From an uncultured Oscillospiraceae bacterium (GTDB lineage Bacteria; Bacillota; Clostridia; Oscillospirales; Oscillospiraceae), in contig CANPYX010000015.1 in assembly GCA_947588955.1 (NCBI GenBank), forward strand, positions 1 to 53,961: a stretch of 53,961 bases of DNA, in the 5' to 3' direction. The notes under the pieces were generated by a model. That model saw nothing but the letters and a program-made list of their open reading frames with translations, did no database searches and was not told the origin of the DNA. Positions within the stretch are counted from its first letter, which is position 1; every line of letters begins with the position of its first letter. The position numbers were made by a program, and so were the translations under genes. Positions 1,262 through 22,146 of this stretch are shown here, in pieces.

Positions 1262-1711
1262 TCACCAGGCGCTGTCCCAGCCCCGGTCGAAGGCGTCATA
1301 TACAGCGTCCGAGGCTCCCACGCCCCGCTGGCTGCCGGCGGAGCGGCGGCGGTTGAGCTCCCTTTGGCTGTCCCTCTCCCTGAGCCGCCGGTTCTCACGC
1401 CTCAGCGCCTCGGCCTCGTATTTCCCCCAGGCGGCGACAAGGCTCTCGCCCCTTGCCACCCGCTCCCAGACGCTTTGCGGTATGTCCTCCGCCTCCACCT
1501 CCGGGTACTCCAGGACGAACCTCAAAAGCTCACCCTCCGCCGCGGCATCCGTCTCCGTGGCGGCGGGGTCCCCGGAGGATTTTTCAGCCTCCGCGCTCTC
1601 CCCGCCGTCAGCGGTTTCCTCCGGCAGCTCCTCGCTGTCCCTGCCGTCCGCCACAACTCCTCCGTCCTCCGACCAGCCGTCGGAGAACCAGTCCTCTCTC
1701 TCATTTTCCAT
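1262..1711 (-). CDS. Putative phage capsid scaffold protein
   Basis: A 149-residue, very acidic protein. Residues 1-65 are low-complexity Glu/Asp/Ala/Ser, and residues 85-125 form an Arg/Glu-rich helix (AEALRRENRRLRERD) likely to be a coiled coil. An acidic disordered N-terminus, a charged helical C-terminus and a position between portal and capsid genes are typical of phage scaffolding proteins, which shape the procapsid and leave before DNA entry. The start overlaps the portal stop by 11 bases, so it is co-translated with the portal. The family is not identified by sequence; the role is inferred from composition and context. Confidence 0.65.
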   Translation of the reverse strand: MENEREDWFSDGWSEDGGVVADGRDSEELPEETADGGESAEAEKSSGDPAATETDAAAEGELLRFVLEYPEVEAEDIPQSVWERVARGESLVAAWGKYEAEALRRENRRLRERDSQRELNRRRSAGSQRGVGASDAVYDAFDRGWDSAW

Positions 1712-3305
1712 TATTATCCTCCCTCGCTTTTTTAAGCTCCTCGATGAGCCCGCGCCTGTCGGCTATGTACCCATCGGGTATTCGCTCCAAATATTGGATC
1801 ATGTCTATGTGCCCCCGGCTCAAAAGGTTGTCCAGCGTTTGGACTGAGGCGATCTCCGAGTAGTAGGCGCTGGCGCCCACGTCTATCTTCAGCGCCATGG
1901 GAAGCCCGCGGAAAAATCCAAAGTCAAACTCCGCCGCGCCGCCCTCGCCCGTGTCCACCGGGCGTATGCCGTAAAACTCCCCGATGAACTCAAGGTAGAT
2001 TTTGGCAAGCTCCTCCACGCACTGCTGCAAATTCTGCTTCGTTATCTCCGAGGGCGTCGCCGCCGCCCTTTGAAGGGCTATGATGGCGCTGGTGTTGTCG
2101 GGTCTCACGTCACCCAGGGCGGCGCTGGTTGTACCCAGGTTGCGGTTTGTCTGGTCGATGGCGGCGTCGATGAACTGGGTCACCTGGGGCGATATTACGG
2201 CGGGTGAAAGTGGCCTCGCCGCCGTGGATACGTCCCCGCCCGTAACGCCTATCGCCTGCCCCACCTGGTTCGTCCACTTGGGTATGCGCGTCCTGTCGTA
2301 GATTATCTTGGGGTACGCCGTGGTCATGAGGGACAGCATGGACATGGCCCACATCTTGTTTATAAATATCTGGTTGGGTATGAGCCCGGTTATCATCGCC
2401 TGCCCGTGGCAGCAGTCGGGAATGTAGTCCCAGCTGAGCCACACGATGGGGTAGAGCCGTATCCCCAGGCTCCAGGGCCCGCGCACGCGGGCGTTTCCCG
2501 CGCACTCATAGCCCCGGATCTCCCCGCTCTCCGGCTCCCGCCACAAAAAGAGCAGCTTTGTCACCTTGCCGTCGGTGCGCCTCTCGTCGCCGGGGTGGGT
2601 GTTGTCGTCGTCGGCGGTGATGAGGTCCCAGTCGGGGCTTCCCAGCTCCCACGCCCTTTTCCTCAGCGCCCCCACCATCTCCCGGCTCTCAATGATGATC
2701 CAGGGCTGGGACTGCACATGCCTGTCGTTGGGATTGCCGAAGTGTACCCTGGTGTTGGGAATGATCTCCGACCTCACTGTGCCCTCGCCGCTGTCCTGGT
2801 CCCACCAGGAGTATAGGCACCCGTCCCCGCGCACAGCCGCGTCCCTGGCAAGCTCCCTGAGGAGCCCCGGCACGTTGTTGTGCTCAAAGAGGCTCTCAAA
2901 CTCCTCGTTTAAAATCCTCACCGGCTCCTTGAGCATCTCCGTGCGGGGAGTTGACGCCAGGGGCTCGGCCTGGACCTTCAGATTGTCCGAGGTTATGGAG
3001 CTCACCACGAAGCACACGTCGCGCTTCAAAATGTTGAACACCGGCGTGGGAAGCCCGTTGGAGCGGACCCCCTCCCACTGCTTTCCGATGAAGAAATTCT
3101 CGTTGGTGTTCACCGTCTCGTATAGGTCGATGGACTCCTTGAAGCTCCGCCCCTTCTCGTAGAGCTCCCGGACGCCCTCTGGGGTCACCCCCTCGCCGCC
3201 GAAAAGCCCCTCCTCTGGAAACCTCTCCTCAAATGTCCCGCCCAAGGGCGCCATCGCGCCCTCAAAGCCCTTCAAAACCGTCTGCCCCTCAAGCTCTGTC
3301 CTCAT
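1701..3305 (-). CDS. Phage portal protein
   Basis: A 534-residue protein fitting a podovirus-type portal, the dodecameric ring at the head vertex through which DNA is packaged and ejected. The N-terminal region has ENFFIGKQWEGVRSNGLPTP followed by FNILKRDV, resembling the clasp and stem entry of P22-like portals. The middle has a long predicted helix after WAMSMLSLMTTAYPKI. The C-terminal third contains SAIIALQRAAATPSE and RGHIDMIQYLERIPDGY, typical of portal wing and crown helices. It follows the small membrane-anchored gene with a 17-base overlap and precedes the scaffold gene, giving the usual portal-scaffold-capsid order. The ATG at 3305 is the only sensible start. Assignment is by motif pattern and order, not by a search. 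Confidence 0.85.
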   Translation of the reverse strand: MRTELEGQTVLKGFEGAMAPLGGTFEERFPEEGLFGGEGVTPEGVRELYEKGRSFKESIDLYETVNTNENFFIGKQWEGVRSNGLPTPVFNILKRDVCFVVSSITSDNLKVQAEPLASTPRTEMLKEPVRILNEEFESLFEHNNVPGLLRELARDAAVRGDGCLYSWWDQDSGEGTVRSEIIPNTRVHFGNPNDRHVQSQPWIIIESREMVGALRKRAWELGSPDWDLITADDDNTHPGDERRTDGKVTKLLFLWREPESGEIRGYECAGNARVRGPWSLGIRLYPIVWLSWDYIPDCCHGQAMITGLIPNQIFINKMWAMSMLSLMTTAYPKIIYDRTRIPKWTNQVGQAIGVTGGDVSTAARPLSPAVISPQVTQFIDAAIDQTNRNLGTTSAALGDVRPDNTSAIIALQRAAATPSEITKQNLQQCVEELAKIYLEFIGEFYGIRPVDTGEGGAAEFDFGFFRGLPMALKIDVGASAYYSEIASVQTLDNLLSRGHIDMIQYLERIPDGYIADRRGLIEELKKAREDNNGK

Positions 3306-4685: not shown

Positions 4686-5271
4686 CTTCTTTTCTCATCT
4701 TTTTCTCGGAAATGAGAAAAAGATGAGGAAAAGAAGCAAAAGAGAGAAAAAGAATTTTTCTTTTGGGGTCGGCAGAAGCTTTTGCGCCCTACCGTATTGT
4801 CGGCGGGTCGGCTCCCGCCGTCTGAAACTTTCACGCACGGGCAGAAGAATCGATGCGCGGGTTCCCGTAAGCCGAATTGCACAGTCTCCGAACTCGCTTA
4901 GCCGCTTAACGTGGTCGGTAGTCAGGACGTCCTGCCCTTCAACATCGCCGCGCTTTGTGGGTGCTTGTCGGGCAAAATGTTTCAGTGCTGCTCCTACACA
5001 GTGTTTTCGCAACTGCTGCCGATACGCTCCCCACCGGGGGTGTCTCCAGTAGGGGGGCCTCAGCCCCCCTAACTGGTCGTTTTTAAAAGGGGATTGTCAA
5101 GGGGGAAAATCGAAATCCCCCTTGACTCGCTTTTCTCTCCTTTGTTTCTTTCCTCTCTTTTGGCGAATCCAAAAGAGAGGAAAGAAAATCCCCCCGCCCT
5201 ACAAGGGCGGATACCTTACAAAAGCCCAGCGGCTCAGGAGCCCCCGCGCCTATTAAAGGCGCGGCCCTTTG
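4686..5271. repeat. Long dispersed repeat, copy L, inside the phage cluster
   Basis: No convincing gene lies between 4602 and 5283. The stretch holds a copy of a repeat whose other copy lies at 21404-22146 in opposite orientation. Order here: an A/T-rich hairpin (4688-4738), a conserved core starting GGGGTCGGCAGAAGC at 4765 and passing CCTACACAGTGTTTT and GCTGCCGATACGCTCCCC, a GC hairpin around 5055-5075 (GGGGGGCCTCAGCCCCCC), a second A/T-rich hairpin (about 5150-5185), and a terminal hairpin at 5243-5267 (CGCGCC TATTAAA GGCGCG). Similarity to the other copy, judged by eye, is high over about 420 bases and again at the terminal hairpin. Open frames across it differ between the copies and look spurious. 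Confidence 0.85.
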
Positions 5272-5283
5272 GGTAATACCTTT

Positions 5284-8200
5284 TTACCTAACATACCCCG
5301 TCCCGCGGACCCTAATATCCGCCGATACCACCGTCACGGTCTTATCCGGGTTGTCGCTGCTCAAAATGAGCTTGTAGTACGTAAATTTCTTCGCCTTGAG
5401 CTTTATCCTCTCCATCTCCGGCACCCCCGCGGCGTCACTTGTTCCGAAGCTGTATACCGCGAAGTCCGACTTCCTGTCCGTCTCCGCCGTGACCTCCAAA
5501 TACCCGTTGTCCTCCGGCTTTATCCCTATCCACACCGTCGCCGAATACTTCCTCCGGAAGTCCTCGGAAAAGCTCATGGCGCCCGATTCCCACACAGCGT
5601 CTATCGCCTCCCCGTTGTCGGAGAAGTACCTGTCCGAAAAGTGCCGCAGATACCCGTCCCGCGTGCCGTAATAGAGCTCGTCCCGGTAGTTTATCATGCA
5701 GGTCAGGTCCAGCCCCGTGTACACATACCAGGCGTCCACGTCCAGATTTTGCACAATGGCGGTCCCGTCCTCGCCGATAACGTAATACTCATGGCTGAAC
5801 TTGTCATAGAACGTCCTGGCCTTCGTGAGGTCAAACTGCCTTATTGACGAATCTACCCTCTGGCTCACCCTCTCGGCGTTGCGCTGATCGCCGGTTATGC
5901 CGGAGGAGCTCGTCGCCTTCCACTCGATGACGCTCCTGCCGTCAAGCGTCCGGGGCCTGTTGAGCACCAGCTGCGCCTGCCCGTAGGCGCAATTGCCTAT
6001 GGACCTGTTCACCGGCGTCACCGTGAACCCCGCGGTAACCGTCCCGTCAATGAGAGTTATGGTGTCGTAGCCTATGCTCCAGGCGGAATCGGGCTTGAAG
6101 GCCATGAGCTTGTTGTAGTGGCGTATGAGCGCCGTGATGGGCGTGTTCGCGTCCCCCACAGCCGCCTCATAGAGGTCCGGGAAGTAGTCCGCCCTCGCCC
6201 TCCCCTCGTGGTCAAGCCCTGAGTAGAAGGTCCTGTTTGTCCCGTCGCCGTATATGAATACCCTGGTATCCTGCGCCCCGTTGTATGTCTCGGCGAACCT
6301 CATGGCGGTGACCTGCCCCCTCATGTCCTCCTTCGCGCTCCAGGCGATCTCCAGCGAGTTTATCCCCTTCGCGGGAGGATTCACAAACGTAACAGTCCCC
6401 GCCGCAAGGTCGACGGTGTAATTCGCGGCAGCCGCGGCTAAAAGAGCGTCCTCCTGCCCCTCAAAAGAGGGTCCTTCTGCCCCTTCGTCTGAACTTACAT
6501 CGTCGACCCCCGGCTCCTTCACCCAGTCCACGGACTTTATGTCCGTCTCCGGCAGCTGGAACACCGTGGCAACGCCGTCGGGGGAGAACCAACAGCGGCG
6601 GCCCGCCGTCAGCCTGTTCACGTTCTCCAGAAGCGTCCCCCCGCCGTTCGGCTCCACGCTGACGGAGACAAGCGGCCTGTAGCCCTCCACCTCCTCAAGC
6701 CTCGCCCCGTCCCAGACAAGGTACTTCTGCCCGTTGAGTATGTAAAGCTTCTCGTCAAATCCGAACATGTGGACGTCCCGGGACGTGTCCATCTCCCCCG
6801 CCGAAAGCTTGGACCACGTCGTCGCGGAACCCGCTTTGCCTCCCCCGCCCCTTTGGGTCGGGCTCGGGCGCTGGGTTCGCTCCTCCTCCCCCCACGAAAT
6901 CTCCGATTCCGTGGGGACCCCATTATCCTCCATTTTTAATTCCCACAGCGCCCCGCCACACGCGGCGCAAAGCACCTCCCGTCCGCCAACGTACCCGGAC
7001 CATATCCCCCGGACCACCGTGTCCGTGACAACGCTGGTCTCGGAGTACGTCTCGTTGAAATACCACCTGAATGTGTCCGCCCTTATGTCGGACAGGGGAT
7101 TGGCCCAAAAGCTGTAGGCGCTCTCGTAAAACTCCGCCGCCTCGTTGTTGAGGGTGTAGCAGTAGTAGGTGGTCCCCTCCCTCATGACGGTGTACTCCAC
7201 CCCGTCCACGTCCAGGGTGTCCACGTACTCAAAGCCCCTGTCCTCCTCCGGCAGCTTACCCACCTCCACCGCCACGTCCTCAACGTAGTCGTTGATGGAG
7301 TACTGGAGATCCACCTTCTCAAACGGCCCCTGGGCGCTGGAATTATACAGTGTGTTGCTCCCGTAGCCCACCACGTCCTTGACTATCCCCGTTCCGCCGC
7401 CGCCCTGGTAGATGGTGCCGGGGTTTTCGTAGGTGACCCTTATATATCTCCCCGTGGTGTTGTATACGCCCGTATTCCTGTCAAAGCTGTACCCGGTGTA
7501 GCCGTTTGCCTCGATGAGCGAGTAAAACGTCCCCAGCGCCTTGAACTCCCCCTCCTCGTACCACGTCTCCACGGTGCGGGAGTAGGCGCACTTGAATTTC
7601 TTCCAGTTACGGTACGGAACATAGGTGTCCACCCTTATCCCGTAGTATTTCCAGAGTTTTCCGTCCCGCTGGAAGTACCCGCCCATGTTCTCGCTGTCCC
7701 AGCCCACCTCCCGGCGGGTGGGAGCGGCGCGCCTGACTACGCGCCCGGCGACGTCGGCGGTTATCTTGCCCCCGATGTTCTTCACCGCCGCCTGGGTGTG
7801 GGTGTCCAGGTACCACTCCCCGGAGTGGCTCTGAGCCCCAGAGGGGTCGGTCCTGACTACGCCTGAGCATACGCGGGAGAGCGCCCCCGTGGCGCAGGCG
7901 CCGCCGGTGAGCTTCTCGTTTCCGGCCGCGGGGTCCGTCTCCACGTCGGACAGGCGGTAGACTATCCCCGCCCTGTCCATGTACCACCCGGAGTACTCCC
8001 CCGCGCCGCTGCCGACGACAGTCTCAGGCGAGCCGCCAACGTGTATGGCTCCCAGGTCGTCCACGTCCATCCTGGGGAAAAGCTCGTGCCCCTCCCCGTC
8101 CCCGTCGTCGGTGAAAAGGAGCCTGCGCTCCTCCCTCACCCGCGCCGTGTACTTACTCAGCAGCCCCGCCACGTTCCGGCTCCCCGGCCTCTTCTTCAAC

Positions 8201-8346
8201 GCCCCGCCGGAGGTGACCCGAAAATTCCTCATCACCGCCGCCTCCCCCAGCTTCAGCCTCGCCTCCCCCTCCGCCGCCTCATTAACCCCGTGCCAGCGGG
8301 TTATGTTGTACACGCTCTCCCCCAGGCTTTTTGAAATATTTGCCAT
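5284..8346 (-). CDS. Large phage head-completion or tail-hub protein, beta-propeller-like
   Basis: A 1020-residue soluble protein, start ATG 8346 with an AAGGAGG site. The N-terminus (EAAVMRNFRVTSGGALKKRP) resembles the opening of podovirus packaged-DNA-stabilisation or stopper proteins of the P22 gp10 type. The C-terminal half has repeated beta motifs expected of a propeller (RVFIYGDGTNRTFYSG, HYNKLMAFKPDSAWSIG, RTFYDKFSHEYYVIGEDG, MINYRDELYYGTRDGYL) and ends in a beta-sandwich-like region. A role in closing the head vertex or forming the tail hub is inferred. Residues about 476-510 are encoded by a copy of the dispersed palindromic element (6817-6921) that reads through in frame, giving a Gly/Glu/Arg-rich insert with WGEEERTQRPSP. 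The gene sits 17 bases after the large terminase gene and before the portal gene, an uncommon order. Confidence 0.7.
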   Translation of the reverse strand: MANISKSLGESVYNITRWHGVNEAAEGEARLKLGEAAVMRNFRVTSGGALKKRPGSRNVAGLLSKYTARVREERRLLFTDDGDGEGHELFPRMDVDDLGAIHVGGSPETVVGSGAGEYSGWYMDRAGIVYRLSDVETDPAAGNEKLTGGACATGALSRVCSGVVRTDPSGAQSHSGEWYLDTHTQAAVKNIGGKITADVAGRVVRRAAPTRREVGWDSENMGGYFQRDGKLWKYYGIRVDTYVPYRNWKKFKCAYSRTVETWYEEGEFKALGTFYSLIEANGYTGYSFDRNTGVYNTTGRYIRVTYENPGTIYQGGGGTGIVKDVVGYGSNTLYNSSAQGPFEKVDLQYSINDYVEDVAVEVGKLPEEDRGFEYVDTLDVDGVEYTVMREGTTYYCYTLNNEAAEFYESAYSFWANPLSDIRADTFRWYFNETYSETSVVTDTVVRGIWSGYVGGREVLCAACGGALWELKMEDNGVPTESEISWGEEERTQRPSPTQRGGGGKAGSATTWSKLSAGEMDTSRDVHMFGFDEKLYILNGQKYLVWDGARLEEVEGYRPLVSVSVEPNGGGTLLENVNRLTAGRRCWFSPDGVATVFQLPETDIKSVDWVKEPGVDDVSSDEGAEGPSFEGQEDALLAAAAANYTVDLAAGTVTFVNPPAKGINSLEIAWSAKEDMRGQVTAMRFAETYNGAQDTRVFIYGDGTNRTFYSGLDHEGRARADYFPDLYEAAVGDANTPITALIRHYNKLMAFKPDSAWSIGYDTITLIDGTVTAGFTVTPVNRSIGNCAYGQAQLVLNRPRTLDGRSVIEWKATSSSGITGDQRNAERVSQRVDSSIRQFDLTKARTFYDKFSHEYYVIGEDGTAIVQNLDVDAWYVYTGLDLTCMINYRDELYYGTRDGYLRHFSDRYFSDNGEAIDAVWESGAMSFSEDFRRKYSATVWIGIKPEDNGYLEVTAETDRKSDFAVYSFGTSDAAGVPEMERIKLKAKKFTYYKLILSSDNPDKTVTVVSADIRVRGTGYVR
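6817..6921 (-). repeat. Palindromic dispersed element, copy A, inside a coding sequence
   Basis: Read on the minus strand, the copy begins GGGGTCCCC, has a short imperfect inverted repeat, continues with GGGGGGAGGAGGAGCGAA and ends GCGACGACG. It is 105 bases, exactly 35 codons, and lies in frame within the phage hub gene. Other copies are at 11665-11785, 12321-12424, 12515-12617 and 12955-13059. Confidence 0.85.
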
Positions 8347-8363: not shown

Positions 8364-9740
8364 TCAGTAGAACAGGTAGCTCTCCTCCGGCTCGCCGCCG
8401 AGTATCGGGTCCTCAAAATATTCCTCCTCCGCCTCCCCCGGAGCCTCAGCCGGAGCGACGCGGGAGACGCAGTAGTACCTGAGCGCGTCCACGGTGTGGG
8501 TGACCTCGTGGGGCTCCCTGGCGCAGTCGTTGGGGTTCGTCTCGTCCGCCTGTATGGCGGTGAGGTCGGAGATGAGCCTTTGGCAGTTGCCGGAGATGAG
8601 AAGCTCCGGTCCCCGCTCCCCGGCTGAGAGCATATCCTTTATCATCATGTGCCCCTGGACGCGGTTGTTGTCGGCGCGGGTCAGCGGCACGCCCACGGAT
8701 CTGAATATCTCCTCCATGGTCCTGCCCGTGTCCTTCTGGGTGCTCCACAGGTCCGGCGGGGCGAAGGTCGCCTCGATGTTCTCCCCCGGCAGCGTCCTCT
8801 CCAAAATCCCCCTGGCGGCGTCGCGGACGATGAGCCGCTCCTTTGTCCACTCCCGGTAGACGTGGCTGCGCCCCTCCTCGTCCACGGCGATCCACAGCAC
8901 CGCCAGCATATCAAGCCCGTAGTCTATGGACCTGTACCGCCGCCAGTGGGCGGGTATTTTCATGGGGGCGAAGGTGTGGATTCCCCGCCGGAACTCGGAG
9001 AAGTAGCTGCCGCCCAGGGCGTCCCAGTCGCCGTAGCGGTACGCCCTGCGCACGTTCTCCGGCATCTGCGACAGCATTTTCAGGTAGTGAGGGGAGGATT
9101 TCAGAAGAAATTTGTTGTCCTCCACCGTCGCCGGAATGAACACATAGTCCTCCGGCTCCTCCCGCCGCTCAGGGTCGTCGCTTTTTTGGTAATCCCTGTC
9201 GATAAAGAGCCTCTTTACCCAGCTGTGGCCCACGCCTCCGGGGTTGCAGGTGAGGTACATCCGCTTCTGATAGGGGCTCACACCGCGAAGGCACCCCTTG
9301 AGGTAGTTGAAGGTCCGCTCCGTGAACTGGGTCGCCTCGTCAATGAATATCCAGTCAAACTCCTGCCCCTGGTACTCAAGCTCCGAGAGCTCCCCGGACC
9401 AGTGGCCGAACTTGACGGAGGAGCCGTTGAAAAAGCTGAGCCGCCTGTTTGTCACGTTGTAGGAGGCTATCTCCGGCGGCACGGACCTGACGATGGGCCC
9501 GATGTGGTTCTCCTCCAGCTCCGGGTAGGTCCGGCGCATTATGAGGATGCGTATTCCGGGGTTGCACACAGCGCCGCCCACCGCCTTTGTCCGCACCGCC
9601 CAGGTCTTGCCGCCGCCCTTGGCGCCGCCGTAGGCTATGAAGGGCGCCCGCGCCATGAAAAAGAGCTTCTGCTTTTCGCTCGCCGTGCCGGGGTTCCACA
9701 CCGCCGCACCCTCCGCCTCGGGCGCCCTCTGCTCCCTCAT
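8364..9740 (-). CDS. terL: Phage terminase large subunit
   Basis: A 458-residue DNA-packaging motor that cuts phage concatemers and pumps DNA through the portal. The ATPase domain carries a Walker A motif GGAKGGGKTW at residues 38-47, an adenine or arginine-finger region RTYPELEE at 70-77, and a Walker B with catalytic Glu, IFIDEATQ, at 131-138, followed by the coupling motif TCNP. The C-terminal RNase H-like nuclease begins near residue 270 with YRSIDYGLDM, which supplies the first metal-binding Asp. Length is normal for the family. The start overlaps the small terminase stop by 4 bases (ATGA), so the two are coupled. The assignment is secure. Confidence 0.95.
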   Translation of the reverse strand: MREQRAPEAEGAAVWNPGTASEKQKLFFMARAPFIAYGGAKGGGKTWAVRTKAVGGAVCNPGIRILIMRRTYPELEENHIGPIVRSVPPEIASYNVTNRRLSFFNGSSVKFGHWSGELSELEYQGQEFDWIFIDEATQFTERTFNYLKGCLRGVSPYQKRMYLTCNPGGVGHSWVKRLFIDRDYQKSDDPERREEPEDYVFIPATVEDNKFLLKSSPHYLKMLSQMPENVRRAYRYGDWDALGGSYFSEFRRGIHTFAPMKIPAHWRRYRSIDYGLDMLAVLWIAVDEEGRSHVYREWTKERLIVRDAARGILERTLPGENIEATFAPPDLWSTQKDTGRTMEEIFRSVGVPLTRADNNRVQGHMMIKDMLSAGERGPELLISGNCQRLISDLTAIQADETNPNDCAREPHEVTHTVDALRYYCVSRVAPAEAPGEAEEEYFEDPILGGEPEESYLFY

Positions 9741-11588: not shown

Positions 11589-11662
11589 GCGCCAATAGCT
11601 CAGCAGGATAGAGCAACTGCCTTCTAAGCAGTAGGCCGGGGGTTCGAGTCCCTCTTGGCGTG
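11589..11662 (+). tRNA. tRNA-Arg (anticodon TCT)
   Basis: Acceptor GCGCCAA pairs with TTGGCGT, leaving a G-U at the terminal pair. The anticodon loop CTTCTAA lies in stem ACTGC/GCAGT and reads AGA. CCA is not encoded. A palindromic element starts within three bases of the 3' end, and the odd terminal pair may reflect that junction. Confidence 0.92.
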
Positions 11663-11664
11663 CT

Positions 11665-11785
11665 CGTCGTCGCTGAACACGCTTTGCCTCCCCGCGAGGC
11701 ACTCGCCAAGGGCGCCTGCCTCACGGCTCGGGCGCTGTGTTCGCTCCTCCTTTCCCCACAAAATCTGCGATTTTGCGGGGACCCC
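11665..11785 (-). repeat. Palindromic dispersed element, copy B
   Basis: A 121-base copy lying directly 3' of tRNA-Arg, in the orientation opposite to the tRNA. On the minus strand: GGGGTCCCC, palindrome GCAAAATC-GCA-GATTTTG, GGGGAAAGGAGGAGCGAA, a variable middle 16 bases longer than in copy A, then GCGACGACG. The frame corresponding to the coding copy A is open throughout (WGKEERTQRPS). Confidence 0.85.
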
Positions 11786-11859
11786 ATAATCGCGCGAGCG
11801 GCGCTGCTCCATTTAGCGCGTGGTTTGAGAGTTCTTCTCGCGATTGGTTAATTTAATAT

Positions 11860-11934
<75 letters not shown>

Positions 11935-11969
11935 CTCATATGACGCCATCTCTTTGGTGGCGTCATTTA

Positions 11970-12242
11970 AGCTGACGGGAGTCGAGCCCGCATCGGTTTT
12001 CGGCGGCGGATTTCCGCCCGTGCGGCGTCAAAGCCCTTGGCAATACGAAAGTATTCCCTGCGGGCTTTTCCTTGCCCGAACGAAAATCCGCCGTCGAAAA
12101 CTGCTTCGCACTCCACGCGGAGCAATTTTCGAGTGATTTTCCGCGCGGAGGAGGCAGCCTTGCTGACGCAAGGCAACGACGACAAACGGAAAAGCGCCGA
12201 AAAGGGCCCGCGTGGAGCGGTGCGGGCACGGCTCCCGTCAGC
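11970..12242. repeat. Inter-tRNA spacer bounded by inverted T-arm-like repeats
   Basis: The 313 bases between tRNA-His and tRNA-Gln hold no gene. GCTGACGGGAGTCGAGCCCGC starts near 11970 and its near inverted copy (GCGGGCACGGCTCCCGTCAGC) ends near 12242, enclosing about 230 bases of GC-rich sequence with smaller hairpins. The left arm is nearly identical to part of 11429-11470. Confidence 0.6.
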
Positions 12243-12247
12243 TTTAT

Positions 12248-12319
12248 AGGGATGTCGCCAAGCGGTAAGGCACAGGACTTTGACTCCTGCATTCGTGGGT
12301 TCGAGTCCCGCCATCCCTG
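12248..12319 (+). tRNA. tRNA-Gln (anticodon TTG)
   Basis: Acceptor AGGGATG pairs with CATCCCT. GCCAAGCGGTAAGGC is the typical Gln D-arm. The anticodon stem CAGGA/TCCTG encloses CTTTGAC with anticodon TTG. Discriminator G; no encoded CCA. Copy C of the palindromic element begins two bases later. Confidence 0.95.
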
Positions 12320-12320
12320 T

Positions 12321-12424
12321 CGTCGTCGCACGAGCCGCTTAACCTCGGGCTCCCTAACGGTCGCCCTCAGGCGCAGGCTCGGCTCCTCCTCTCCCCACGC
12401 GATTTTCAATCGCGCGGGGACCCC
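12321..12424 (-). repeat. Palindromic dispersed element, copy C
   Basis: A 104-base copy immediately 3' of tRNA-Gln and opposite to it. On the minus strand: GGGGTCCCC, palindrome CGCGATT-GAA-AATCGCG, GGGGAGAGGAGGAGCCGA, GAGGTTAAGCGGCT, GCGACGACG. The shared frame is open (WGEEEPSLRLR). Confidence 0.85.
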
Positions 12425-12468
12425 ATTTGACGGAAGCCGCGATAGCTCCCCTGACGGCTGTCGCCATA

Positions 12469-12617
12469 GGCGCCTGCCGTCAGGCTCACTCGCTGGCTTC
12501 GCTCCTCCTCTCCGCGTCCTCGCTGGCGTCACTTAACCTCGGTCTCCCGTTGGTCGCCCTCAGGCGTAGACGCCGCTCGTCCTTCCCCCACAAAATCTTC
12601 GATTTTGCGGGGCCCCC
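12469..12617 (-). repeat. Palindromic element, copy D with an attached partial copy
   Basis: A full copy at 12515-12617 (on the minus strand GGGGGCCCC, palindrome AAAATC-GAA-GATTTT, diverged end GCGAGGACG) abuts a partial copy at 12469-12514. The partial copy keeps GGAGAGGAGGAGCGAAGCCAGCG but lacks the hairpin, as if one copy had inserted into another. It fills the gap between tRNA-Gln and tRNA-Lys together with copy C. Confidence 0.75.
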
Positions 12618-12654
12618 GTTTTTGTGCTCGGAGGGGACGAATTTAAAAAGGTAT

Positions 12655-12727
12655 GACTTGGTAGCTCAGCAGGCAGAGCACCTGCCTTTTAAGCAGGGTG
12701 TCCCGGGTTCGAATCCCGGCCAGGTCA
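12655..12727 (+). tRNA. tRNA-Lys (anticodon TTT)
   Basis: Acceptor GACTTGG pairs with CCAGGTC. The anticodon stem CCTGC/GCAGG encloses CTTTTAA, anticodon TTT. The T-arm CGGGTTCGAATCCCG is standard. Discriminator A; CCA not encoded. Last gene of the cluster. Confidence 0.95.
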
Positions 12728-12731
12728 TAAA

Positions 12732-12766
12732 AAAAGTCTTAGAGCCGCAACGGTTCTAAGACTTTT
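12732..12766 (+). terminator. Rho-independent terminator of the tRNA cluster
   Basis: AAAGTCTTAGAGCC and its arm GGTTCTAAGACTTTT form a stem of about 14 base pairs followed by TTTTAGTTTTTT, 5 bases after tRNA-Lys. Confidence 0.85.
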
Positions 12767-12917
12767 AGTTTTTTAGATTACGGTTTTGTAACCAACGTGT
12801 AACCAACCGCTTTGCATTATCTCCAATAAAAGGATTCCATTCCTTTTCTCGAATTTTTGGAACGTTAGAATTTAGTTCTCCAAATCCAATATTTTTCCGG
12901 CGGCATGTACGTCGGAA
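12765..12917 (-). other. Possible decayed gene end next to tRNA-Lys
   Basis: An AT-richer stretch between the tRNA terminator and repeat copy E. One minus-strand frame reads for about 50 codons to a stop at 12765, ending VTRWLQNRNLKN, with no start codon and no ribosome binding site. It looks like the 3' end of a lost gene, perhaps from an element once integrated at the tRNA. I cannot name the family. Confidence 0.3.
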
Positions 12918-12954
12918 AAATCACCTTTTGTTTTGCAAGTGTGTGACCCTTTTT

Positions 12955-13059
12955 GGGGTCCCCACGCAATCATGATTGCGTGGGGAGAGGAGGAGCGAAG
13001 CCTGCGCCTGAGCCCTGCCGCTTGCGGCGGGGCGAGGTTAAGCGGCTTCCGCGACGACG
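12955..13059 (+). repeat. Palindromic dispersed element, copy E
   Basis: A 105-base copy, the only one on the plus strand. GGGGTCCCC, palindrome CGCAATCATGATTGCG (perfect), GGGGAGAGGAGGAGCGAA, GAGGTTAAGCGGCTTCC, GCGACGACG. It is not next to a tRNA. Confidence 0.85.
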
Positions 13060-13078
13060 AGCGCGCGCAGTGCGACAG

Positions 13079-13126
13079 CAGGAAAGCCCTCGTGAAAGGT
13101 CAGCAGACCTTTCGCGAGGGCTTTCC
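13079..13126. terminator. Hairpin, likely bidirectional terminator
   Basis: GGAAAGCCCTCG and CGAGGGCTTTCC form a long stem interrupted by GAAAGGTC/GACCTTTC, which extends it. A second small hairpin with AAAAAATGG/CCATTTTTT follows at about 13145-13165, just past the stop of the minus-strand zinc-ribbon gene. Confidence 0.6.
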
Positions 13127-13171
13127 GCACGTATCCCTTTCAAAAAATGGCAAAGCCATTTTTTGAGGTTT

Positions 13172-17432: not shown

Positions 17433-17474
17433 GGTTTGCGGACTTTTGAAATCGGCTGAAAGGTGATATATAGA

Positions 17475-20400
17475 ATGTTTTCGCCTCTTGCGAAAAACAC
17501 ATACAGGGAAATAACGCGCTCGCCGGGGCGGTTTTTGGCGATAATTGCCATAATCGTCCTGGGGAGCGGCTTTTTCGTGGGTCTGAGGGTATCGGAGAAG
17601 GCAATGACGGCCACCGCCAACACGTACCTTGACGACACCAGGTTTTACGATTTCTCCGTCGCCACCACCCTGGGGCTGACGGAGGAGGACGTGGAGGCAA
17701 TGCGGGAGAGCCCGGAAATACTGGACGCCGAGGGGAGCTTTGAAACCGACGCGCTGGTGAATTTCGGCGAGGACGTGGACCTGGTGTACTCCTTCTACTC
17801 CCTGCCGGAGAGGATAAACATACCGGAGCTTTTGGAGGGCCGCCTGCCGGAGAGCGCCGGCGAGTGCCTTGCCGACTCCTGGTCAGGTCTTGAGCCGGGG
17901 GATAAGATATACATATCCGAAAATAACGCCGAGGACGACCTGGAGCTCTTCACCCGCCGCGAGCTCACGGTGACGGGCGTTGTGACCTCGCCGCTCTACC
18001 TAAACTTTGAGCGCGGGAGCACCGCCCTGGGTTCGGGGTCGGTCAGCTCCTTCTGCTACGTACTGCCGGAGGTCTTTGACGCGGACTATTTCACCACCGT
18101 GTACATACGCTGTGAGGACATGCCAGAGGGGTACACGGCGGGGTACGACGACCGCTCGGAGGCGCTGGAGGACGTGCTGACGGCGATAGCCGACGCCCGC
18201 GCCGACGCCAGGTACACCACCGTTGTGTCCGACGCCCAAAGGGAGCTGGACGACGGCTGGGCGGAGTACAACGAGGGACTTGAGGAATACAGGACAAAGC
18301 GCGCCGACGCGGAAAAGGAGCTGGAGGACGCCGCTACGGAGCTTGAGGACGCCGCGGCAAAGCTTGAGGACGGGAAAAGGGAGATCGAGGACGGCAAAAG
18401 GGAGCTTGACGACGGGAAAAAGGAGCTTCGCGACAACGAAAAGACGCTCTCCGACGCCAAGGCGACCTTGGACAGCGCCAGGGCTGAGCTTGAGGACGCG
18501 AAAAAGCAGATAGACGACGGCGAGGCGGAATACGCCAATGGCGTCGCGGAGCTGGAGGACCGGCGCGCCCAGGGCCAGGAGGAGCTGGATTCGGCAAAGG
18601 CGGAGCTGGACGACGCCCTCGCCACGCTCAACGAGGGCGAGGAGGATTACGCCCAGGGGCAGAGGGAATACGAGGACGGCTGGGCGCAGTACAATGCCGG
18701 CGCATCGCAGCTGGAGGGCTACCGCAAACAGCTTGCCGATGGCGAGGCGGAGTACGCCGATAATCTTGCCTACTACCAACAGCAGAAGAAGCTTTTTGAC
18801 GACGGAAAGGCTGATCTTGAGGCAAACGCCCAGCGCATCGAGGACGCCCGCGCCACCGTCGCAAGCTCCAGACAGCTCTTTGACCTTTTGATGAGCGCCA
18901 TCATGAGCGGCGTGAACGACGCCTCCGGCGGGAAATACAGCTTTACCTCCGCCGAGGAGCTGCTTGCCGCGCTGCCGGGGGACAGCGAGCTTGCGAATAC
19001 CGTCACGGGTATACTTTCCTTTTATCAGAGCATGGGCGCTCCCGCAAACAGCGCTGACCTTCTTGAAGCATACGCTACCCTCACAAATGCCGAGGCGGAG
19101 ATAAAGCGGTACGACGACGCCGTTGCAGCGCTCCCCCAAAATGAGCAGCTGCTTGCCGATTTTGAGGCGGGGCTCCAAACGGGGAGGGCGACGCTGGACG
19201 GCTACCAGAGACAGATACAAAGCGGCGAGGCGGAGCTCACCGCTGCCTACTCACAGCTATATGACGCCGCCGCGCAGCTGCGGGACGCCCGAAAGGAGCT
19301 GGACGACGGCTGGGCGGAGTACAACGAGGGGCTTGCCGAGTACGAGGACGGGGTCGATGAGTTCAACACCGCCATAGCCGACGCCGAAAAGGAGCTCTCC
19401 GACGCCGCCGACGCCCTTGAGGACGCCAAAAGGCAGTACGACGAGGGGCTTGCGGAGTACGAGGAAGGGCTTGACGAATATAACGACGGGCTAAAAAAAT
19501 ACAATGACGGCAAGCGCAAGCTCTCCGACGCCGAGGCGGAGCTTGCGGACGCGGAGAGGGAATACGCCGACGGGCTTGCGGAATATGAGGACGGGCTCAA
19601 AGAATACGAGGACGCCAAAGCGGAGGCTGAGCGGGAGTTTGCCGACGCGGAGGCGGAGCTTGCCGACGCCAGGGCGGAGCTCATGGACGCGGAGCGGGAG
19701 ATAGCGGACATCGCCTATCCCGACGCCTACCTTCTTGGGCGCTGGGCAAACGTGGGCTACGCCTGCTTTGAGTCCGACGCCTCCATAGTGCGCAGTATAT
19801 CCTCGGTCTTCCCGCTGTTCTTCTTCCTTGTGGCGGCGCTCATATGTATAACCACCGTCTCAAGGATGGTGGAGGAGCAACGCTCGCAGCTGGGCGTTTT
19901 GATGGCTCTGGGCTACTCGCGGCTTGCGGTGATGGGGAAATTCCTCGTCTACGCGGGCTCCGCCACGGTTATAGGCTGTGTATCCGGGCTGCTGCTGGGG
20001 TCGCGGGTCATACCGCTGGTGGTGTGGCAGGCGTATAAGATAATGTACTCCTTCTCGGACAAAATAGAGTTTTACTACGACCTGCGGCTATCCACGGTCA
20101 CGTTCATAATGTACCTTGCGGCAATGCTCCTGGTCACATGGCTTTCCTGCCGGAAGGAGCTGGGGGACGTGCCGGCAAACGTCATACGCCCCAAGGCGCC
20201 AAAGGCGGGCAAGCGGGTGATTTTGGAGCGGGCGCCCTTCATATGGAACCGCCTGAGCTTCCTCTGGAAGGTCACGGTGCGCAACATATTCCGCTACAAG
20301 CTGCGGGTAATGATGATGATACTGGGCATCGCCGGCTGTACGGCGCTTATGATAACCGGCATGGGTATAAACGACTCCATAAAGAACGTGGTGGACTACC

Positions 20401-21389
20401 AATTTACCGAGATCTCCCGCTATGATTTCACCGTCACCTTCTCCGGCGATATGGATCAGGCGGCGCGGGAGGAATTCATGTCCGACGCCTCCGGGCTTGC
20501 GGAGGATTCGCTTTTCCTCCACCAGTCCAGCTTCACCGCCACGGCAAACCGGGTGGAAAAGAGCGTGTACTTAAACGCCGTGGATACCGAAAGAGCCGGG
20601 GACGTGGGAGAATTCATCGACTTCCACTCCGGCTCCCGCCCCCTCCCCTTCCCCGGAAAGGGCGAGGCGCTTATAAATACTGGGCTTGCCAAGGCGCTGG
20701 GTGTAAAGGCGGGCGACACGGTGGAGCTGAGGGACGATGGCGGCGCGGAGCTTACGCTGACGGTATCCGGAGTTTACGACAACTACATATACAACAACGT
20801 ATACATAAGCTCCGAGACATACGCCGGCGCGGTGGGCGAGGAGCCGGAGATAAACTACGCGCTTATTTTGAAAAACGCCTCCGTCACCACGGGCGACGCG
20901 CTGGCGGCGATACTGAGGATGGACGGCGTGCTCACCGCCTCCGCAAGCCAGGAGCTGCGCGACCGCATAGGCTCGATGATGGAGAGCCTCATCTACATCG
21001 TACTGCTGACCATAGTCTGCGCCGCGGCGCTGGCGTTCGTGGTGATTTATAACCTCACCAACATAAACATCCAGGAGCGGCTTCGCGAGATAGCAACCGT
21101 GAAGGTCCTGGGCTTTTACGACGGGGAATCGGCGCTCTACGTGCTGAGAGAAAACCTCCTCCTCACCCTCCTGGGCGCAGCCGCCGGCATCCCCCTGGGG
21201 CTTGCGCTGAACGCCTTCGTAATGAGTGAGATCAAGATAGATCTCATACATTTTACGCCAAGGGTGCTGCCGATGAGCTATGTGTATTCCGTTGCGCTGA
21301 CGATTGTTTTCAGCATGATGGTGGATGTTTTGATGTTCAGGAGGCTCAAGAGGATCAATCCGGCTGAGGCGCTCAAGGCGGCGGAGTAG
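17475..21389 (+). CDS. Giant FtsX-type permease with extracellular coiled coil
   Basis: A 1304-residue partner of the preceding ATPase. ATG 17475 is taken as start because AAAGGTGA lies 8 bases upstream. Layout: membrane span 1 (about 15-37); MacB-like periplasmic-core-like domain (40-245); a long coiled coil (about 255-750) built of seven-residue units such as ELDDGKKELRD, EYEDGLKEYED and AEAELADARAEL, interrupted near 455-570 by a non-repetitive section; then FtsX spans (SVFPLFFFLVAALICITTVS onward), a second core domain (about 990-1160) and three C-terminal spans (SLIYIVLLTIVCAAALAFVV etc.). The family occurs in Firmicutes and Actinobacteria. The coil, outside the membrane, could bridge to the cell wall. 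Substrate unknown. Confidence 0.9.
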   Translation: MFSPLAKNTYREITRSPGRFLAIIAIIVLGSGFFVGLRVSEKAMTATANTYLDDTRFYDFSVATTLGLTEEDVEAMRESPEILDAEGSFETDALVNFGEDVDLVYSFYSLPERINIPELLEGRLPESAGECLADSWSGLEPGDKIYISENNAEDDLELFTRRELTVTGVVTSPLYLNFERGSTALGSGSVSSFCYVLPEVFDADYFTTVYIRCEDMPEGYTAGYDDRSEALEDVLTAIADARADARYTTVVSDAQRELDDGWAEYNEGLEEYRTKRADAEKELEDAATELEDAAAKLEDGKREIEDGKRELDDGKKELRDNEKTLSDAKATLDSARAELEDAKKQIDDGEAEYANGVAELEDRRAQGQEELDSAKAELDDALATLNEGEEDYAQGQREYEDGWAQYNAGASQLEGYRKQLADGEAEYADNLAYYQQQKKLFDDGKADLEANAQRIEDARATVASSRQLFDLLMSAIMSGVNDASGGKYSFTSAEELLAALPGDSELANTVTGILSFYQSMGAPANSADLLEAYATLTNAEAEIKRYDDAVAALPQNEQLLADFEAGLQTGRATLDGYQRQIQSGEAELTAAYSQLYDAAAQLRDARKELDDGWAEYNEGLAEYEDGVDEFNTAIADAEKELSDAADALEDAKRQYDEGLAEYEEGLDEYNDGLKKYNDGKRKLSDAEAELADAEREYADGLAEYEDGLKEYEDAKAEAEREFADAEAELADARAELMDAEREIADIAYPDAYLLGRWANVGYACFESDASIVRSISSVFPLFFFLVAALICITTVSRMVEEQRSQLGVLMALGYSRLAVMGKFLVYAGSATVIGCVSGLLLGSRVIPLVVWQAYKIMYSFSDKIEFYYDLRLSTVTFIMYLAAMLLVTWLSCRKELGDVPANVIRPKAPKAGKRVILERAPFIWNRLSFLWKVTVRNIFRYKLRVMMMILGIAGCTALMITGMGINDSIKNVVDYQFTEISRYDFTVTFSGDMDQAAREEFMSDASGLAEDSLFLHQSSFTATANRVEKSVYLNAVDTERAGDVGEFIDFHSGSRPLPFPGKGEALINTGLAKALGVKAGDTVELRDDGGAELTLTVSGVYDNYIYNNVYISSETYAGAVGEEPEINYALILKNASVTTGDALAAILRMDGVLTASASQELRDRIGSMMESLIYIVLLTIVCAAALAFVVIYNLTNINIQERLREIATVKVLGFYDGESALYVLRENLLLTLLGAAAGIPLGLALNAFVMSEIKIDLIHFTPRVLPMSYVYSVALTIVFSMMVDVLMFRRLKRINPAEALKAAE

Positions 21390-21403: not shown

Positions 21404-22146
21404 TCCAAAGGGCCGCGCCCTTAATGGGCGCGGGGGATTGGCCAAAGCAGATATGCTTTGATTTATAATGGCATTATATCACATTTTTTGAAAATGTCAA
21501 GTAAAAATAATTAAAAATACTTCGTCATTTTCAACAAATTTTTCGGCTTCGAAGCCGCGGGGCTTTTTATAATGATTCCGCCATTAAATGGCGGAGGGAT
21601 TTACTTTCTCCTCTTTTGATTTCGCCAAAAGAGGAGAAAGTAACAAAGAGGAGAAAAGCGACCAGAGGGGGATTTCGATTTTCCCCCTCTGGACTCCCCT
21701 TTTAAAAACGACCAGTTAGGGGGGCTGCGGCCCCCCTACTGGAGACACCCCCAGGGGAGCGTATCGGCAGCAGTTGCATAAACACTGTGTAGGAGCTGTC
21801 CTGAAAGCTTTTGCCCGACAACAGAGCCAAAGCGCGGCGATGTTGAAGGGTAGGGCGTTCTGATACCACACCACGTTAAGCGGCTAAGCGGGTTCGAAGA
21901 CTGTGCAATTCGGCTTACGGGAACCCGCGCGCCGATTCTTCTGCCCGTGCGGGAAAGTTTCAGACCGCGGGAGCCGTCGTGAGTCTATACGGTGAGACGC
22001 ATAAAGCTTCTGCCGACCCCAAACAGGGTCCAGGGAGGGATAACATTATCCCTCCCTGGTTTCTTTTTCTCTTTTGTTGTCTTTTCTCTTTTTGGAAATC
22101 CAAAAAGAGAAAAGCAAATCCCCCGCGCCTATTAAAGGCGCGGCCC
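21404..22146. repeat. Long dispersed repeat, copy R
   Basis: The 773 bases between the permease gene and ribU hold no gene. They carry the second copy of the repeat at 4686-5271, in reverse orientation. Near-identical hairpins form its ends: GGCCGCGCCCTTAATGGGCG at 21411 and, inverted, CGCGCCTATTAAAGGCGCGG at 22124. Inside: an AT-rich part unique to this copy (about 21450-21600), an A/T hairpin (21603-21640), GGGGGGCTGCGGCCCCCC near 21720-21738, the conserved core to 22020, another hairpin at 22030-22062 (AGGGAGGGATAA/TTATCCCTCCCT) and a further A/T hairpin (22070-22115). No target duplication was seen. Confidence 0.85.

Follow-up and report, generated by a model that had tools for sequence, protein, structure and literature searches.

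A self-folding dispersed repeat, inserted in frame in a phage virion gene of an uncultured Oscillospiraceae bacterium

The stretch of DNA analysed here (the window, 53,961 nucleotides from an uncultured Oscillospiraceae bacterium) contains a 105-nt segment, copy A, which is read inside a phage structural gene and recurs elsewhere in the same stretch. The question raised by this locus is whether the segment is a piece of the protein or a mobile repeat that has landed in the gene and, in the second case, whether the repeat is fitted to being translated. The initial annotation likened it to the palindromic elements of Rickettsia: in the available parts of the sources these are ~150 bp long with nearly half in ORFs (PMC10969869), and are inserted in frame into protein genes as well as between genes (PMC10969869, PMC3733652). 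The reading favoured here, at a probability of about 0.78, is that the segment is a non-autonomous, self-folding mobile repeat inserted in a phage gene, and that its in-frame copies are those which survived ordinary insertion.

The carrier gene is an uninterrupted open frame of 1020 amino acids, and the neighbouring genes, coding for a terminase large subunit and a P22-type portal, are phage genes (Table 1). The protein is matched by 13 Bacillus phage records, only from residue 513 or 524 to 1020, and the RefSeq records among them are annotated as virion structural protein. Its better-conserved C-terminal half starts near residue 510, directly past the insert, which to judge from these alignments marks the boundary of that half. 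Copy A is free of stops in the virion frame, where it is conceptually translated as ...NGVPTESEISWGEEERTQRPSPTQRGGGGKAGSATTW..., and is matched by the covariance model of the element with an E-value of 5.6e-20, copy A being one of the model's 27 training rows. As to the surroundings, a long repeat in inverted orientation (4809-5272 and 21405-21976, arms 84-94% complementary) flanks a 16-kb part of the window, and a long coding-repeat array in 21-nt steps (18147-19712) is found in a 1308-aa ORF (17463-21389).

Relatives of the 1020-aa protein were found in 28 of the 150 genomes of the bacterial family searched. In genome G117 the match stops at residue 477 and restarts at 510, both parts being contiguous in the genome, and the five aligned relatives in which absence was scored at the site (L032 to L036, two of the same genus) all lack the same 33-34 residues. 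The codons at the site are GAC GGC GGG GTT TGG in G117 (L059), against GAT AAT GGG GTC, 33 codons and TGG in the window, and the GGGGT of the element's edge is already there in L059, where the element is absent; against genome G020 (L033) the gap comprises 34 codons. The nearest insert-free relative is 83% identical downstream, and gives the ancestral state of the site only approximately. Read from these alignments, copy A is a real in-frame insertion in a phage virion gene. The earlier account of a 35-codon segment translated within the 1020-residue protein is borne out as regards the stop-free frame and the in-frame insertion, but not as regards the length, the gap being of 33 or 34 codons depending on the relative.

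Table 1. Features of the window and copies of the repeat (positions refer to the window unless a locus is named)
Feature	Position	Strand	Basis or remark
P22-type portal protein (PF16510), same region as virion gene	1704..3305	-	
Phage virion structural protein gene (1020 aa), carries the insert	5284..8346	-	ORF and homologues
Copy A of the element, in frame	6817..6921 (model R1 match 6816-6922)	-	translation, blastn, covariance model
Phage terminase large subunit, adjoins virion gene	8364..9737	-	
Element copy; 3' end abuts 3' end of tRNA-Arg (11589-11663)	11664..11786	-	
Element copy; 3' end abuts 3' end of tRNA-Gln (12247-12321)	12320..12425	-	
Partial or divergent element copy between copies 12320-12425 and 12514-12618	12433..12513	-	absent from model R1 list
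Element copy	12514..12618	-	
Larger repeat Y, holds the 12954 copy	12877..13166	+	other Y copies in the genome without element
Element copy, consensus-like, nested in larger three-hairpin repeat	12954..13060	+	
tRNA-adjacent copies	window 11664-11786, 12320-12425; L323, L306, L210, L333, L300, L286, L109, L119, L126		
Empty Y copies read	L391, L192, L195, L207, L213		
Divergent copies before dnaJ-like starts	L209:1220-1335 (G000:C34), L256:2418-2532 (G020), L335:2463-2564 (G231), L110:4986-5100		G231 match weak
Viral or prophage copies with the next gene's start at -2..+1 of the 3' end	L424, L428, L445, L449, L430, L434, L435, L441, L442, L443, L422, L447, L423, L438, L450, L410, L413, L421		

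The segment is one of many. In its own genome (G000, 2.56 Mb) the covariance model finds 56 matches, and blastn at E <= 0.001 finds 40, six of which are mere 34-nt pieces; four other full copies lie in the window, in agreement with the dispersed palindromic family initially proposed. Five other genomes of the genus hold 54 (G020), 33 (G117), 28 (G231), 4 and 5 copies. The census used below consists of the 171 copies of four genomes (56, 54, 33 and 28), the 4- and 5-copy genomes being outside it, and is complemented by 168 other copies; both sets overlap and are not independent (L105 and L120, for instance, correspond to copies in G020 and G117), and the distinct copy sequences number 251. Across the bacterial family the element turns up in 146 of 300 genomes (E <= 0.001, at most 13 candidates scored per genome), many of the matches outside the genus being weak. 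Strict filters left matches in 10 of 398 genomes sampled from the phylum; two of the 10 belong to the element's own family, and the other eight have 1 to 3 matches each. Among viral contigs the strict pattern gave no match, and a looser pattern picked out 32 contigs, on which model R2 makes 43 matches; the E-values of models R1 and R2 are rough, each having been built partly from copies it recovered. With blastn, copy A found no match in the phage records, nor the 12954 copy in the plasmid records.

In the phylum sample, PHROGs matches identify phage genes in L410 and L413 (phrog_69 exonuclease, phrog_25 head closure); L412 and L421 are phage-like by eye, a MAIKS gene being shared with the viral locus L443. 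The 100 named stretches listed, of at least that many, all come from MAGs called Lapin, and carry no information on host range; of 80 of them, 77 loci are named Oscillospiraceae, L074 and L078 Lachnospiraceae and L135 Acetatifactor, the other 20 being Oscillospiraceae. None of the papers listed in the literature search appears to describe this repeat, and copy A is taken to belong to a new family of structured mobile repeats. In L067 (3294-3779) four copies stand in direct tandem at a spacing of ~121 nt.

The element, of ~105 nt, begins with TGGGG and ends in GACGACGA, and has a covarying multi-hairpin fold: hairpin 1 is followed by a long stem capped by a variable hairpin, and at the base of the long stem GAGGAGGAGC pairs with GCGACGACGA through tandem G.A mismatches. 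In an alignment of 33 copies from many genera, 23 of the 30 proposed pairs show changes on both sides. Paired cells amount to 89.3% (71.6% when shuffled), double-change cells to 190 (58.6 in shuffles), and the covariation score to 0.543 against 0.209, none of 500 shuffles being as high; the structure was taken from the same alignment on which it was tested, which favours it, and related sequences can exceed such shuffles. Shifting the 3' partners by 1 to 3 columns abolishes most of the signal. The 3' strand of the base helix is paired with compensatory changes, one of its G-C pairs being C-G in 2 of 27 and 3 of 33 copies, and the two tested G.A positions hold standard pairs in 5 and 6 of the 33 sequences. 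A known RNA family was discarded as a candidate: in Rfam 15 no family reaches its gathering score over the whole window, and at E <= 5 in 11600-13100, a range outside which copy A lies, only sub-threshold matches are found over copies (at the 12954 copy, SmY with 17.0 bits for a threshold of 39 and MIR2646 with 17.5 bits for a threshold of 245).

As to the keeping of a protein-compatible frame, the copies themselves can be consulted. The 251 distinct copies have a mean of 3.27 of six frames open, against 3.46 (3.30-3.55) in 20 rounds of dinucleotide shuffling. Stops interrupt copy A's frame in most copies: it stays open in 12 of 54 own copies and in 48 of 158 others, fewer than for either of the remaining sense frames; within the window it runs open, as had been reported, through the copies at 11664-11786, 12320-12425 and 12514-12618, and meets two stops in the 12954 copy. 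All six frames of copy A are free of stops, a state which it shares with 4 of 251 other distinct copies and which may reflect chance or a filtering once the copy had inserted. Against its three nearest copies, its differences by codon position are 4/4/2, 7/2/4 and 5/4/4, with no third-position excess.

Further in-frame copies exist. A DUF3102 gene carries the element in L156; the counterpart of this gene in G020 (L337) is without it, both parts being contiguous, and a second aligned relative, L347, gives no clean gap. In L189 it is antisense in a replication-type gene (HTH_36/DUF6017), and absent from the gene of G030 (L352); a search with L189 in the viral contigs gave no relative. A phage head maturation protease carries it in L442: with the query's own contig left aside, 48 relatives were compared, of which 38 span the two flanks; at least 28 of the 39 insert residues are missing from 28 of the 38, the other 10 falling below this cut in a linker that is variable there. 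In L065 (antisense) and L078 (sense) the element is in portal genes, in the linker between two CxxC pairs; this linker varies in relatives, which define the empty state only approximately. It is found, finally, in a phrog_329 minor tail protein gene (L191) and near the C-terminus of a primase-like protein (L431). The host genes of all seven loci match phage-type Pfam or PHROGs families.

Such copies are rare. In the codon-usage test of the 171 census copies, with scores trained on long ORFs of the loci studied and rough gene calls, two pass with a frame that stays open and has coding-like sequence to either side: copy A, and one in G117:C54. The latter was set aside, since it runs antisense to a portal match whose end falls inside the element. 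When coding-like flanks on both sides of one strand are considered, six census copies appear, one of them copy A, and the remaining five were taken as intergenic, beside gene starts: two precede dnaJ-like starts, G231:C2 and G231:C14 are beside starts on the other strand, and G000:C50 was so classed by the likeness of its flank to G231:C2, by eye. Most of the family is thus intergenic. Long open frames over copies in L110, L153, L182 and L209 were discarded as antisense shadows, by eye from composition.

With these data several explanations of the in-frame segment can be weighed. That it is an ordinary part of the phage protein draws on its open frame and nothing further; an ordinary protein domain is ruled out by the relatives without the segment, dozens of its own relatives lie elsewhere in the genome, mostly between genes, and the probability left to this reading is practically nil. 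An element cut from the mRNA or bypassed by the ribosome, in the manner of an intron or a hop, would suit the strong fold, but no intron family reaches the Rfam gathering score in the window, and the frame through copy A is open, something that removal would not require; it is very improbable. A little more room, still at long odds, is left to a frame-preserving, protein-adapted element, a Rickettsia palindromic element in the strict sense, kept for a protein-compatible peptide. Real genes do carry in-frame copies, several in number and in either orientation, and the six open frames of copy A are shared by so few others; however, open frames are below those of shuffled sequences, the frame of copy A is closed in most own copies, codon-position bias is absent, no more than 2 of 171 census copies (one of them set aside) are in frame with coding-like flanks, and there is no common peptide, because the in-frame peptides differ in frame and in orientation. 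Nothing special about the element is needed to account for the in-frame state, its in-frame copies look like survivors of ordinary insertion, and we think that the added residues are tolerated rather than useful. Of the initial proposal of a mobile palindrome like that of Rickettsia, the dispersed multi-hairpin repeat, the in-frame insertion and the existence of more in-frame copies have stood, and matches in related genomes were found (146 of the 300); the keeping of a frame is not supported, and no codon-position bias was seen. Homologues that all carry the segment, or an absence of other coding copies, were not what the comparison returned: the aligned relatives are without the insert, and other in-frame coding copies were found.

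Thirteen copies lie within 10 nt of a tRNA, and in every one of them the 3' end of the element meets that of the tRNA, at -2 to 3 nt; they comprise 10 of the 171 census copies, 3 of the 168 others and 0 of the 43 viral ones, several being the same tRNA in different species. A landing site of the element is the larger repeat Y, made up of three hairpins whose stems vary between copies. The own genome has Y both with and without the element, which occupies two different positions in it. In the five empty Y loci read the second hairpin is intact; in one group of filled loci the element is at the loop of the second hairpin, whose 3' arm is missing, and in the other group it is just past this hairpin. 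L029 has one element nested in another. The filled and empty sites that were read, both in Y repeats and at in-frame insertions, show no target-site duplication. Directly ahead of the element, three successive positions hold A or T in 69, 57 and 76% of 115 census sites, for a background of 45%, in 62, 60 and 68% of 125 other sites and in 67, 85 and 67% of 33 viral sites. Seven copies of the own genome (G000:C11:50724, C16:42394, C22:22722, C4:101282, C5:50902, C6:8889 and C27:13567) are inside a further large repeat, whose conserved flank on the left reads ...GGCGGCTGACGCAAC, or nearly so, and whose flank on the right has TTTTAATT and ATTAGTAT.

The possible mobilising enzyme was sought as Y1_Tnp, which has matches in 18 of the 40 genomes searched, the own genome included in the search: none in the own genome (56 copies), none in G117 (33 copies), one in G020 (54 copies) and three in G231 (28 copies). 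In 14 stretches around Y1-like genes no flanking pair of elements was found; two of them hold the element, on one side only, and in L409 one element is ~500 nt from the Y1 gene.

The relation of the element to start codons is especially marked in viral contigs. Of the 43 viral copies, 19 have, at -2..+1 nt from the element's 3' end, an ATG or GTG that starts a frame of 50 codons or more, and none of the 43 has one when the same test is made on the opposite strand at the 5' end; the start is an ATG at +1 in 13 of the 19. These 19 copies represent ~11 distinct genes, since the MPPKGHA gene is repeated five times, the VAKV gene three times and the MSFG gene twice, and include one likely spurious ORF (L431). 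Over the 18 nt that precede the element, 15 of 41 viral copies show a loosely defined Shine-Dalgarno-like motif, while the two host sets show it in 10 of 167 and 11 of 167. At -2..+1 nt the host sets show no excess (12 distinct ORFs at the 3' end and 13 at the 5' end in the census, 10 and 8 in the others); when starts within 25 nt that open a coding-like ORF are counted, there are 14 (3') against 7 (5') in the 171 census copies and 12 against 6 in the 168 others. Evident single cases in hosts stand apart from this: a dnaJ-like start directly follows a divergent copy in G000, G020, G231 and L110, the copy in L110 being the second of that locus, and because it is present in several genomes of the group this copy is probably old and kept there; an nrdG-like start follows a copy in G000 (the names dnaJ, nrdG and carA were read from N-terminal sequence, without a family search). 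Viral and prophage copies at start codons often have a Shine-Dalgarno-like motif directly before the element. The insertion in the window also follows GGAGGATAA, and by eye no such motif is seen at L065, L078, L156 and L189.

This placement bears on a further explanation, in which the element is an RNA-level unit selected for its fold and, in phages, a translation-initiation module (a split ribosome-binding site), the intragenic copies being side products of mobility. The one-sided viral starts, the enrichment of the motif before viral copies, the 3' bias of host starts within 25 nt, the dnaJ-like and nrdG-like starts and the precedent of T4 genes 25 and 38, in which a fold between the Shine-Dalgarno sequence and the AUG helps initiation according to the part of PMC3014915 available, all point towards it. 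Against it are the lack of a host excess at -2..+1 nt, the reduction of the 19 viral copies to ~11 genes, the Shine-Dalgarno-like sequence which several viral copies keep between element and start (L439, L446), and the compactness of phage genomes, because of which surviving copies are bound to be near start codons, though their orientation should then be mixed. This explanation is possible, and can be held only tentatively. A broader version appears rather doubtful: a mobile, phage-borne RNA fold would insert at or between the Shine-Dalgarno sequence and the start, leaving or supplying a working split ribosome-binding site, with the conserved GAGGA at the stem base and the start codon docking at the GACGACGA end; it would be kept before host genes (dnaJ), dock on tRNA 3' ends and, when in frame, add ~33 residues to phage proteins. 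Regarding the mode of movement, an element like REPs or IS200/IS605, with hairpins that a Y1 (HUH) transposase would recognise in trans in the form of single-stranded DNA, would agree with the conserved multi-hairpin single-strand fold, the lack of target-site duplications in the sites read, the presence of Y1_Tnp matches in 18 of the 40 genomes searched and the element near a Y1 gene in L409. However, the own genome and G117 have no match, though at 96 and 99% completeness a missed gene is possible, and no RAYT-style flanking pair occurs in the 14 stretches; a Y1 transposase was set aside as the mobiliser on these grounds, and the reading is judged unlikely.

Under the favoured reading of a mobile repeat with surviving in-frame copies, the element would have been inserted at an apparent loop or linker before the conserved C-terminal half of the virion protein, just after the A/T-rich GGAGGATAA. 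The protein would have gained ~33 residues with the gene left intact, because the net gain is a multiple of three and the frame is open. Somewhat over half of the frames through such GC-rich sequence would be open by chance, and gene-breaking copies would be lost. The mobile unit may be the folded single strand, moved in trans by a putative enzyme, and phages may help it to spread. The family, the fold, the in-frame insertion and the further in-frame copies in phage-type genes, on which this scheme is built, are direct results, and translation of the insert is predicted from the open frame. Weighing against the scheme are the lack of a transposase tied to the element (no Y1_Tnp in the own genome or G117) and of target-site duplications in the sites read, and the loss of part of the target hairpin in element-bearing Y repeats.

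The comparison with known systems shows partial likenesses. Like the Rickettsia elements, this one is palindromic, dispersed and of roughly 100-150 bp, and is inserted in frame into protein genes, as seen against relatives without the insert. Unlike them (nearly half in ORFs, in the part of PMC10969869 available), it is mostly intergenic, with 2 of 171 copies in frame, one set aside; it gives no common peptide, being read in different frames and both orientations with open frames not above shuffles; its in-frame copies are in phage-type genes, and the named host records are Bacillota; and it has a covarying multi-helix fold with constant ends. The family resembles Rickettsia palindromic elements in outcome and fails two of their described features, as far as a comparison by description can tell. 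REPs are hairpins of 20-40 bp with an unpaired tag, according to the available part of PMC3733652. The element shares with CGTC- and GTAG-tagged REPs the condition of a dispersed palindromic repeat found in part inside genes, and its reverse strand begins TCGTCGTC; unlike those single hairpins, it has ~105 nt and several helices, and its CGTC run is paired. Unlike the RAYT/REP system, no Y1 transposase is flanked by it in the 14 stretches, and none is found in G000 or G117. It is similar to MITEs in being short, apparently non-autonomous, present in many copies and nested, and unlike them in showing no target-site duplication in the sites read. By eye no terminal inverted repeat pair is seen, and the search for an autonomous partner transposon, made for Y1_Tnp only, found none. 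As in the split initiation regions of T4 genes 25 and 38, a fold stands between Shine-Dalgarno sequence and AUG in many viral copies, but the T4 spacers are of 22-27 nt, gene-specific and, in the part of PMC3014915 available, not described as mobile.

The available portions of PMC10969869 and PMC3733652 report in-frame palindromic elements in Rickettsia, and in some other genomes in the form of intragenic REPs. To these is added here a structured family of gut Bacillota and viral contigs, with in-frame insertions into virion and replication genes, and since insert-free relatives are available, the tolerance of proteins to such inserts is directly testable. More surprising than the in-frame state is how precisely the element sits at start codons and tRNA ends. 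This placement suggests that the fold lets the element sit where other insertions harm, a testable idea on how short mobile DNA may survive in compact phage genomes.
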